Of a stretch of 64,000 nucleotides of DNA, positions 936 to 53,722 are shown one piece after another. Position 1 is the stretch's first letter. Every line of letters begins with the position of its first letter. The notes beneath the pieces were generated by a model. That model was not told the origin of the DNA and searched no databases. It saw nothing but the letters and a program-made list of their open reading frames with translations. The stretch comes from Clostridiales bacterium DTU069. Lineage in GTDB: Bacteria; Bacillota; Clostridia; DSM-8532. The stretch covers positions 1-64,000 of the forward strand of contig LFRV01000002.1 in assembly GCA_001512485.1 (NCBI GenBank). The letters are read 5' to 3'. Position numbers and translations under genes: made by a program.

Positions 936-1382
936 ATGAAAGTAATATTGAAACAGGATGTAAAAAATCTTGGCAAGGCGAATACTCTGGTTAATGTCAA
1001 CGATGGGTATGCGAGGAATTATTTAATTCCGAAAGGACTTGCGGTAATAGCGGACAGTGCTGCAATTAATGAAATGAAAATGCGAAGTGATGCGGAAAAC
1101 ACAAAAAGGGAAAGAGAACTTGCAAATGCGAAGAAAATAGCCGAAAAAATAAGCGATAAAACTATTGTTTTTCATTCGAAGGCCGGAGAAAACGGAAAGC
1201 TGTTTGGTTCAATAACCGGCAAAGATATTGCTGATAAACTGGAAAAAGACTTTTCTATAAGTGTTGATAAAAGAAGAATCAACCTTCCGGAAGCAATTAG
1301 AACACTTGGGCTTCATGAAGTGGAAATAAAGCTGCATCAAGGGGTTTCCTCGGTAATTAAGGTTAATGTTATTGATGAATAA
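936..1382 (+). CDS. rplI: 50S ribosomal protein L9
   Basis: MKVILKQDVKNLGKANTLVNVNDGYARNYLIPKGLA is a classic L9 N terminus; RBS CGGAGGG. Confidence 0.96.
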   Translation: MKVILKQDVKNLGKANTLVNVNDGYARNYLIPKGLAVIADSAAINEMKMRSDAENTKRERELANAKKIAEKISDKTIVFHSKAGENGKLFGSITGKDIADKLEKDFSISVDKRRINLPEAIRTLGLHEVEIKLHQGVSSVIKVNVIDE

Positions 1383-1641
1383 CCGAAAGCACCCGAACCA
1401 GAGCCGCGTACCAACCGGAACATGGCAGCAATGGCTCGACCCGTTAACCACCCGCTGGTCATTTGGTTGAATCAGCACAGTAGTTGGAGAAGCTATTGCA
1501 CAATAACGGAAACTATAGCGGAATGCAGCTCTTGCAAAGGAAGCTCCTTGTTTCCGTTATTGTACAATAGTTAATAAGACAATTCCCGAACGCAATTCCC
1601 GCGGGTCCTGGTTCGGGTGTTTCGTTTCCCAGGTCGACAAA
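1382..1641. repeat. Modular intergenic repeat, copy A
   Basis: Terminal inverted repeats CGAAAGCACCCGAACCA (1384-1400) and TGGTTCGGGTGTTTCG (1609-1624); ends and core shared with copies at 27.3 and 53.4 kb. Confidence 0.85.
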
Positions 1642-1691
1642 GCACGCACTGTTCAGCACGCTTCAGATCATGTTCATTTTTTTAATAGAGG

Positions 1692-1760
1692 TCTCCATAT
1701 CCCGGGTCGTTCATAAACACGCTCCATATTTGCCTGTAAGTAGCAGGGCGTTGGAGTATG
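1692..1760. repeat. Satellite repeat module CTCCATATCCCGGGTC..GCAGGGCGTTG
   Basis: Roughly 70 bp, largely identical by eye to 53325-53392. Confidence 0.8.
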
Positions 1761-1916
1761 TATGTCGCCAGTCGGTTACTTTTCGAGTTTATTTTACACA
1801 TTGCGCAAAAATTAATGATGATTTTCTTAAATTCATGATATAATATGAATTACACTAAAAGCTCCAAAAACTGCTTTAAGTTTTCCTGGAAAGCTTGATA
1901 ATTAGGGGTGTCATTA

Positions 1917-8584: not shown

Positions 8585-10967
8585 AGAATGGGCGCTTGAA
8601 CAAATACGTGTTTTAGACGGAGCTACGGGCACGCAGCTTCAAAAAGCAGGAATGCCGGTTGGCGTATGCCCCGAAATATGGGTTTTGCAAAATCCCGAAG
8701 TCATTATAAAGATACAGAAAGAATATATCGAAAGCGGATCAGATATCATATATACCTGCACTTTTGGCGGAAATGGGCTAAAGCTGAAAGAAGCCGGCGT
8801 TGAAGACGTATATAGCGTAAACAGGGAACTGGCGGCGCTGTCAAAAAAGGCAGCGGGCAGCAGGGCTTTTGTCGCCGGTGATATTGCGCCGACGGGCCAA
8901 TTGATGGAGCCTTTTGGTGTATATACTTTTGAAGATATAGTGGATGTATATAAAGAGCAGGTTAAGGGTCTGCTTGACGGCGGAGTTGATCTGTTTGTCA
9001 TAGAGACAATGATGGATATACAGGAGGCAAGGGCCGCCCTTCTGGCGGTGAAAGAAACCTGCGACTTGCCGGTAATGGCATCTATGACATTTGAGCGCGG
9101 GGGACATACAATAAACGGGACCGACCCGTTAACGGCTCTTGTTACGCTTCAAAGCCTTGGTGCGGATGTTGTGGGCTGCAATTGTTCCACAGGGCCTGAA
9201 CAAATGCTTGAGATAATAAAAAAACTCAAACCGTTCGCAAAAGTCCCGCTGATCGCAAAGCCTAATGCCGGTATGCCCAAGCTTGTAAACGGCGTTACGG
9301 TCTTTGATATGGGGGATGACGAGTTTGCGGGTTTTGTCGAGCCTTTTATCGAAGCCGGCGTTAACCTTATCGGAGGGTGCTGCGGAACATCACCGGCTTA
9401 TATAAAAAAGATATCAAAAATAGCAAAAGGAAGGAAAGGCAAAGGCATAGCAGATAAGGGCGGCGTGTTGGTGCTGTCTTCGTCGAGAAAGACCGTTGCC
9501 ATCGGAAAAGAGTTGCCGATTTGCGTAATTGGCGAGCGTATTAATCCCACCGGAAAGAAAAAGCTAAGGGATGAGTTGAGAAAAGGCTCAATGGATCTGG
9601 TTACCGAATACGCGATGGATCAGGTTGATGAAGGAGCAAAGATACTGGATGTAAACGCCGGTGTTTCGGATATAGACGAAGCGGCGGTGCTTACTGAGAT
9701 AACAAAAACTCTGAGCACAATGGTACAGACACCTCTATGCCTTGATTCATCCTCGCCAAAAGCTTTGGAACAGGCACTCAGAATTTATCCCGGAAGGGCG
9801 TTGATTAATTCGATATCGGGTGAAAAAGTCAAGCTCGATAAAATTCTTCCCGTTGCCGCAAAATACGGGGCCGCGTTCATACTCCTCCCTCTCGATGACA
9901 ATGGGGTTCCCGAGACAGCGGAAGAAAGAATAGAAATAGTTAAAAAAGTGTATGAAATAGCAAAAGAATACGGGTACACAAAGGATGATATACTGGTGGA
10001 CGGCATGCTCATGACTGTCGCGTCAAATCAAAAAAGCTCATTAGAAGCTTTGAAGGTGATAAAATGGTGCGACCAGGAGTTTAATGCCAATACAGTAATA
10101 GGACTGTCGAATATTTCATTCGGGCTTCCGGAGCGCACATGGATTAATGCCGCGTTTCTTGCAATGGCAGCGTCATGCGGTCTGACATCCGCTATTATGA
10201 ACCCGGGCGTCGATGTGCTTATGAATGTAAAAAGAGCTTCTGACGCATTAACTTTAAAAGATAAAAACTGTATAGCGTATATAAAGACTTATAGTGTGAA
10301 CAATAACGGGAAACCTGCAGGGAAACTGAAAAATCCCGTGTATAATGCTGTTGTCGACGGTAACCGCGAGGACGTTGTATCCTGTATTAAGGTTGCATTA
10401 AAAGAAGGAACGCCGCCGGCGGAATTGGTTGATAATTATTTGATTCCCGCAATAACATACGTGGGTGAGCTGTATCAAAAGGGGAAATACTTTCTGCCGC
10501 AGTTGATACAGAGCGCTGAAGCGATGAAGTCGGCGATGGCTTTTCTTCGGCCCTACCTGGAAACCGGAAGCGCGGTCCCAAGAAAAGGGAAGATTATTCT
10601 TGCTACCGTAAAAGGCGACATTCACGACATAGGTAAAAATATTGTCGGTTTAATACTTAAAAATTACGGCTTTGAAGTATTTGACCTTGGGAAGGATGTT
10701 CCGTGCGATGTAATAATCAATAAAGCTAAGGAAGTAAACGCGGATATTATAGCCCTGTCCGCATTGATGACTACAACAATGGAAGAGATGCGAATAATGG
10801 CAGGGTACGTAAAAAATGAAAACCTGCCGTTTAAAATTATGGTCGGCGGTGCCGCGGTCGATCAAAACTTTGCTGTGGAAATAGGTGCCGATGCTTACGC
10901 AGCGGATGCATATACGGCCGTTAAGGAAGCGGAAAGGTTAACGGACTACTATTCAGACACGCAATAA
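8565..10967 (+). CDS. metH: B12-dependent methionine synthase lacking the C-terminal activation domain
   Basis: Hcy methyltransferase zinc motif GGCCGTSP, pterin-binding domain (ERINPTGKKKLRDEL), B12 motif KGDIHDIGKNIV; ends right after the B12 domain (800 aa). Confidence 0.92.
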   Translation: MIKKEFREWALEQIRVLDGATGTQLQKAGMPVGVCPEIWVLQNPEVIIKIQKEYIESGSDIIYTCTFGGNGLKLKEAGVEDVYSVNRELAALSKKAAGSRAFVAGDIAPTGQLMEPFGVYTFEDIVDVYKEQVKGLLDGGVDLFVIETMMDIQEARAALLAVKETCDLPVMASMTFERGGHTINGTDPLTALVTLQSLGADVVGCNCSTGPEQMLEIIKKLKPFAKVPLIAKPNAGMPKLVNGVTVFDMGDDEFAGFVEPFIEAGVNLIGGCCGTSPAYIKKISKIAKGRKGKGIADKGGVLVLSSSRKTVAIGKELPICVIGERINPTGKKKLRDELRKGSMDLVTEYAMDQVDEGAKILDVNAGVSDIDEAAVLTEITKTLSTMVQTPLCLDSSSPKALEQALRIYPGRALINSISGEKVKLDKILPVAAKYGAAFILLPLDDNGVPETAEERIEIVKKVYEIAKEYGYTKDDILVDGMLMTVASNQKSSLEALKVIKWCDQEFNANTVIGLSNISFGLPERTWINAAFLAMAASCGLTSAIMNPGVDVLMNVKRASDALTLKDKNCIAYIKTYSVNNNGKPAGKLKNPVYNAVVDGNREDVVSCIKVALKEGTPPAELVDNYLIPAITYVGELYQKGKYFLPQLIQSAEAMKSAMAFLRPYLETGSAVPRKGKIILATVKGDIHDIGKNIVGLILKNYGFEVFDLGKDVPCDVIINKAKEVNADIIALSALMTTTMEEMRIMAGYVKNENLPFKIMVGGAAVDQNFAVEIGADAYAADAYTAVKEAERLTDYYSDTQ

Positions 10968-11035
10968 TTTGTAAGATCTATTGTCAAGTAAGTTCTTCTT
11001 AACGTTTGAACAGGCAGCCGACAAATTCATGCCGA

Positions 11036-11165
11036 ATACACAGCGGGCGGTTAATGGGCGAGGCATTGCTGCCGCTGTTCCGGTTGGTACGCGGCTCCGG
11101 TTCGTGTGCGGAAGTTACCTAAAAAAGCTGTTGCGCAATAGTTCAAATAGTAAATTCCGAACGGT
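11036..11165. repeat. Modular intergenic repeat, copy B (rearranged/partial, inverted module)
   Basis: 11041-11104 is the reverse complement of the copy A segment 1393-1456 with few differences; AGCTGTTGCGCAATAGTTC matches the copy A core in direct orientation. Confidence 0.75.
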
Positions 11166-27227: not shown

Positions 27228-27280
27228 GGCATAATTTAACCAGCAATTTTTTACATTATTTTTGTGGATCCTAATTCGTC

Positions 27281-27430
27281 ACCGAAAGCACCCGAACCAC
27301 CCGCTGTCTTTTCGGCGTAACTCTCACGGGCTGCTCGGAAGAACTATTGTACAATAGTTCAAAAGAAGGTTTTGAACATAATTCCCGCGAGGCCTACTTC
27401 GGGTGTTTCGTTTCCCGGGGCGACAAAGCT
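27281..27430. repeat. Modular intergenic repeat, copy C (compact form)
   Basis: ACCGAAAGCACCCGAACC ... TTCGGGTGTTTCGTTTCCC ends; uninterrupted 20 bp palindrome GAACTATTGTACAATAGTTC at 27341-27360. Confidence 0.87.
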
Positions 27431-40893: not shown

Positions 40894-41073
40894 TTATCGC
40901 GGGAAAATATGTTAAAATAACCTCACCCGTTACCGAAATCAAAGATTCGAATGGGTGCCGGAGAACATTGTATCATGAATTTATTCAGCCGGTGCCCGGC
41001 TGCCCTCGGCTTTGCAAGTTAAAATCTTACGATTTTTTTAAATTTATGATAAAATAAACAAAGGAGGGATGCG

Positions 41074-53324: not shown

Positions 53325-53392
53325 TCTCCATATCCCGGGTCTCTCATTAACCCGCTCCGCATTTGCCTGTGGGCAGCAGGGCGTTGAAGCAT
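53325..53392. repeat. Satellite repeat module, second copy
   Basis: Matches 1692-1760 with scattered substitutions. Confidence 0.8.
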
Positions 53393-53405
53393 GCCGCCCT
53401 TCGTC

Positions 53406-53722
53406 ACCGAAAACACCCGAACCACCCGCTGTCTTTTCTGCGTAACTATCACAGGTGACTTGAAAGAACTATTGTACAATATAAGGAAACTATAGCGGAA
53501 TGCAGCATAGAGATACACTGTCAGAGCGAGGATAAGCAAGTCGACTGTCTGAGCAAAAATGCTTCCTGCAATAAATATTTCGAAGCATTTTTGTGAGTTT
53601 CGACTTGCCCGAGCTGAACTGTGTAGCTCTTGCAAATGAAGCTCCTTGTTGACGTTATTGTACAATAGTTTAAAAGAAAGGATTCGAACATAATTCCCGC
53701 GGGTCCTGTCTCGGGTGTTTTC
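53406..53722. repeat. Modular intergenic repeat, copy D (long, with nested inserts)
   Basis: ACCGAAAACACCCGAACC ... TCTCGGGTGTTTTCA ends; ATTGTACAAT at 53471-53480 and 53657-53666 flanking a 176 bp insert. Confidence 0.87.

Follow-up and report, generated by a model that had tools for sequence, protein, structure and literature searches.

Filled and empty copies of a modular repeat in a genus of uncultured Clostridia probably differ by deletion of a hairpin between its own palindromic ends, a change that would need neither a transposition event nor a dedicated enzyme. The stretch of DNA analysed (the window, 64 kb) comes from a metagenome-assembled genome (MAG) of an uncultured member of the Clostridia (G000), in whose genus tandem, modular hairpin repeats are present; two sister species (G001 and G002) also possess the repeats. 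The first-pass annotation of the window had noted a palindrome that is uninterrupted in one copy of the repeat (copy C) and a 10-mer that occurs on both sides of an insert in two others (copies A and D), and its motifs and coordinates for all three proved exact when the sequence was re-read.

Copy C contains a single 20-bp palindrome, read directly from the forward strand (GAACTATTGTACAATAGTTC, 27341-27360), which most likely represents the two outer end-halves of a hairpin element, fused after loss of the body (a collapsed core). The surrounding unit (27278-27429, forward strand, approximate boundaries from module annotation) consists of LT (27278-27298), a t1 module (27299-27340), the palindrome, and the MR and RO arms. 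Copy D has a full hairpin element (53466-53671, forward strand, ends GAACTATTGTACAAT…ATTGTACAATAGTTT), in which ATTGTACAAT is found at 53471-53480 and 53657-53666, on either side of a 176-bp insert (the body, 53481-53656), within a forward-strand unit of LOa, LT, t1, core and MR (53326-53708). Copy A has a short hairpin element (1490-1573, forward strand, ends AAGCTATTGCACAAT…ATTGTACAATAGTTA), in which ATTGCACAAT (1495-1504) and ATTGTACAAT (1559-1568) enclose a 54-bp insert (the body, 1505-1558) that lacks the inner segment E3 of copy D (53507-53621, forward strand, approximate boundaries from insert comparison); its surrounding unit (1382-1761, forward strand) includes an M2 hairpin (about 1400-1449), a t5-like module, MR, RO and the start of the next LOa.

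Elsewhere in the window, a degenerate M2/LT remnant lies on the reverse strand at 11049-11097, where instead the G002 ortholog holds a short hairpin bounded by the same palindromic ends. This orthologous intergenic site upstream of tRNA genes (window 10958-11131; G002 contig C144, position 10605, hereafter in the form C144:10605) contains part of a large unit (t, M2 and LT) in the window and a short palindrome-ended hairpin in G002, with similar end sequences. A second repeat common to the species (84-93% identity), also palindromic, is located at window 40909-41061, at L153 792-973 and at L198 697-856, with CACCCGTTACCGAAATCAAAGATTTCGAACGGGTACCCGAGAACATTG in tandem within L153. The structured RNAs of Rfam 15 at gathering score gave no match to the repeats, two tRNAs being the sole matches in the window.

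The modules, whose names were coined in this analysis, are arranged in one direction as LOa - LT - (M2) - tX - GAACT[core]AGTTC - MR - RO, often in tandem, and units mostly hold a single orientation within an array. The empty core is the 10-mer ATTGTACAAT alone, and the filled core is ATTGTACAAT-insert-ATTGTACAAT, bounded by the inverted repeats GAACTATTGTACAATAACG and CGTTATTGTACAATAGTTC. Among the tabulated copies, full inserts measure 173-177 bp and shorter forms, which are partial internal deletions, retain 26-146 bp. The full element of about 206 bp, of which G000 has about 28 near-full copies, has complementary 19-bp ends, and the full core folds as one long hairpin, with most of 59 consensus pairs kept over 43 copies and some of them changed on both sides. 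The insert is 92-95% identical between copies and the other modules 79-91%. At least six alternative sequences occupy the tX slot; the segments from ACCCGCTG to GAACT (t1-t6; for example, window 27299-27340 and 1450-1489) look unrelated to one another, recur across species and resemble exchangeable cassettes. Co-orientation with neighbouring genes amounts to a weak preference at most (by simple ORF calls, 40 upstream genes in the same orientation as the unit and 39 opposite, and 55 and 31 downstream).

The repeats are abundant far above chance: the window's own assembly contains 67 matches to the 166 bp of copy C and 44 matches to the insert of copy D with its 10-mers. The exact 20-mer palindrome occurs seven times in G000, three times in G001 and ten times in G002, is absent from the other 29 genomes of the family, and in GTDB r220 is confined to 12 contigs with the title 'MAG: Clostridiaceae bacterium', in a search that possibly did not include the window's own genome. 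When single and duplicated 10-mers were tabulated across G000, G001 and G002, as the first-pass annotation had advised, 54 palindromes were filled and 50 were empty; the copies were gathered by near-exact patterns around the 16-mer GAACTATTGTACAATA, so these figures describe a sample and not a census. MAG contigs often break within arrays (at the ends of G000 C115, C118 and C61 and of G002 C59, C65 and C98), and array length and copy number are therefore underestimated. Copy C does have the single palindrome by which it had been taken for an empty site, but it is not unique, as the sites sampled are empty in about half of cases; far from the insert being always present except in copy C, empty sites are common and precise.

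The 10-mers evidently belong to the insert itself as its ends, whose fused outer halves make up the 20-bp palindrome. ATTGTACAAT equals its own reverse complement and therefore shows up as a direct repeat, too, in any inverted repeat of which it is a part, so that in this genus the signature of a target duplication is uninformative and evidence from outside is needed. A family search with the insert interior, from which the 10-mers were omitted, found matches in G004, G006, G007 and G019, representing three other genera (long matches about 72-86% identical); in G004 the homologous insert forms tandem arrays of about 225 bp. In all four genomes the homologous inserts have related ends that are inverted and not palindromic, GATATCGTGCAATGC…GCATTGCACGATATC in G004 and AGATATTGTGCAATAG…CTATTGCACAATATCT in G007. 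In all 20 copies compared, the ends score higher as inverted than as direct repeats (G004 medians 31 versus 12), which identifies them as the element's own terminal inverted repeats; the fully palindromic form of the ends is evidently peculiar to this genus. The element has in common with a MITE that it is short and multicopy and has terminal inverted repeats.

The pattern offers a plausible substrate for precise deletion. The insert most likely constitutes the body of a hairpin element, which in full form measures about 206 bp and has the terminal inverted repeats GAACTATTGTACAATAACG…CGTTATTGTACAATAGTTC. Since the ends have turned palindromic in this genus, every element also has a 12-bp direct repeat, TATTGTACAATA, which is found on both sides of the hairpin and once in empty sites. 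Slipped-strand deletion during replication has as its standard substrate an inverted repeat enclosed by short direct repeats. Such a deletion would remove the stretch between the direct repeats, and the single copy that remains would be the perfect 20-bp palindrome seen in copy C. Precise excision of inverted repeats that lie between direct repeats, with one direct repeat remaining, is known from E. coli and yeast (PMC5576700), and in M. smegmatis direct repeats favour perfect deletions that do not depend on the main break-repair pathways (PMC3519483). That slippage led to the state of copy C we infer from this substrate and from closely matched filled and empty sites: G002 C299:81 and C146:13498 have nearly identical flanks and differ exactly by the insert, and the tandem neighbours G000 C24:54732 and C24:55264 likewise have nearly identical flanks, with the insert as the precise difference.

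Both states are seen with every t module, and fill state is unlinked to flank similarity (nearest flank neighbours, with copy A entered by hand, agreed in fill state in 40 of 92 cases against an expectation of 45.9), so that changes must be frequent. At G002 C62:4763, a bare palindrome outside the large units faces, at the orthologous locus of the window's genome, the right end, now decayed, of a filled copy (CTTGTTTCTATTATTGTACAACAGCTA; match score 34, compared to a maximum of 26 among 500 shuffles), and the filled state at that locus is therefore probably old; the copy C locus, on the other hand, holds different units in both sister species, so that the precise loss postulated for copy C is supported by the family pattern, from which the event at copy C itself is deduced. 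The copy D locus has only a short remnant in G001 and units on two contig ends in G002, one with a short insert and one with a long insert. No clean empty site lacking every part of the element was found at the orthologous loci compared in the sister species. The locus orthologous to G000 C126:8125 was considered as a clean indel and rejected because the left module and the size of the array in G001 C98 are different, too. An intergenic locus at G000 C24:27886 (L142) exists in three states: the hairpin element alone in the window's genome, a large unit enclosed by two palindrome-like ends in G002 (C120), and nothing in G001 (C187). In 400 kb of G004, where the ends are not palindromic, about one doubtful collapsed form was seen versus about eight filled forms, counts that are few and come from a two-mismatch scan near chance level.

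Insertion into a palindrome with a 10-bp target duplication, the first proposal of the first-pass annotation, did not survive these comparisons, and it is very unlikely that a mobile element repeatedly entered a pre-existing palindrome, duplicating 10 bp or the central TA, with copy C as a never-occupied target. Perfect 10-mers on both sides of the insert in most copies would be expected from such a process, and the inserts are more alike between copies (92.5%) than are the flanks (about 63-65%). IS630/Tc1 relatives duplicate a central TA. At G002 C62:6581, the outer half-palindrome is changed symmetrically (GAACTTTTG…CAAAAGTTC) and the inner halves are unchanged, which rules out a 10-bp duplication there and fits a TA-centred one. 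A palindromic target, however, should accept either orientation, and the insert has the same orientation relative to the unit in 52 of 52 filled sites with readable unit orientation; in other genera these ends are part of the element and do not form direct repeats; and the 10-mers vary by side, differing from the consensus in 19 of 53 cases on the t side and 4 of 53 on the MR side. Outside large units there are likewise bare palindromes and short hairpins bounded by the ends, and it is implausible that an independent target there would match the ends of the element by coincidence. The alternative raised alongside it, that the 10 bp belong to the ends of the insert and are left after precise excision, agrees with the ends seen in other genera. 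A dedicated site-specific recombinase or transposase that acts at the palindrome to excise the body precisely would account for empty sites that are precise and numerous and for strong conservation of the 20-mer, but is highly improbable: a symmetric TA-centred site should also yield inversions, of which none was seen among the 52 sites, and a search of G000, G001 and G002 for the Y1_Tnp domain detected one (IS200/RAYT superfamily) in G000 (C83:2369-2701, L256) and none in G001 (99% complete) or G002, both of which have the repeats. Mobilisation by a RAYT was rejected because this domain is single and confined to G000.

Homologous exchange or gene conversion between array units, refilling and emptying sites behind which there was a single ancient loss or gain, is possible but on its own rather unlikely. 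Such exchange would preserve orientation automatically and fits several observations: the two flanks and the insert vary independently of one another (correlations -0.03 to 0.16), fill state is unrelated to flank similarity, both states accompany every t module, and orthologous loci differ by whole modules. The uniformity of the insert relative to the other modules and the unclustered fill state, which count against slippage, would fit frequent refilling by unit exchange as well, and the 12-bp direct repeat here falls below the range of 20-30 bp that DIRex tests used (PMC5576700). Exchange alone, however, leaves unexplained the bare palindromes outside arrays and the abundance of inserts with partial internal deletions. 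Hairpin deletion by slippage and exchange probably act together, not one instead of the other. The element sits in one orientation inside larger modular hairpin units in tandem arrays, where the modules flanking the palindrome appear to have been reshuffled between units, as the lack of correlation shows, presumably by recombination; the independent variation of both flanks and the insert suggests that exchange between array units contributes alongside slippage.

Base changes in the core offer a further lead. One-sided changes in the core kept G-U pairs in 19 distinct cases versus five A-C (p 0.007), compared to 16 versus 16 in unpaired columns; the outer stems and M2 have no such bias (15 versus 14), and strand-specific selection on RNA was rejected as a general rule on this account. 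One of the G-U changes of the core, the A-to-G variant ATTGTGCAAT, is restricted to the t side among filled copies and matches the form found in G004 and G007. The bias in the core could reflect selection on one strand for pairing. That the nested units constitute a lineage-specific structured-RNA or single-strand-DNA system, with a hairpin core switched between long and collapsed forms, is a doubtful reading.

Several known systems resemble these repeats in part. Tn5-like precise excision and DIRex/MIRAGE (PMC5576700) also involve an inverted repeat between short direct repeats, the loss of which leaves exactly one, but here the direct repeat of 12 bp is a palindromic part of the element's own ends and not a target duplication, and the reaction is deduced. 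The Correia elements (CREE/NEMIS) of Neisseria (PMC2649163, PMC2229807) are likewise short, non-coding and intergenic, with terminal inverted repeats and both full and internally deleted forms; compared by their description, CREE usually lie at TA targets, whereas the units here are arranged in tandem arrays, have modules that can be swapped and are also found collapsed to a bare palindrome. The BOX elements of pneumococcus (PMC3049150) are similarly modular composites with variable internal modules, a predicted RNA fold and repeats inserted in one another, but BOX varies in the number of tandem boxB modules, whereas the variation here lies in nested hairpin segments that may be present or missing, and at least six alternatives occur in the slot adjacent to the core. 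REP/BIME sequences with RAYT (PMC2817692) are also abundant intergenic palindromes in composite arrays; two of the three repeat-bearing genomes here, however, lack the RAYT-type domain of a cognate Y1 transposase, and the units of an array mostly have one orientation instead of alternating.

Collapse of a hairpin element with palindromic ends best explains the pattern, and the modular family of intergenic repeats in which it occurs is of an already familiar kind, comparable to Correia and BOX elements. Within the literature searched, this repeat family of uncultured Clostridia is apparently undescribed, and it is unusually nested. Its main value is as a caution on inferring insertions from sequence alone, for it exemplifies a general trap: a palindrome within an inverted-repeat stem can pass for a target-site duplication, and its collapse for an empty site. 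The family may also show, in a natural setting, an element with ends that drifted into palindromic form and would thereby have furnished built-in direct repeats for its own deletion.
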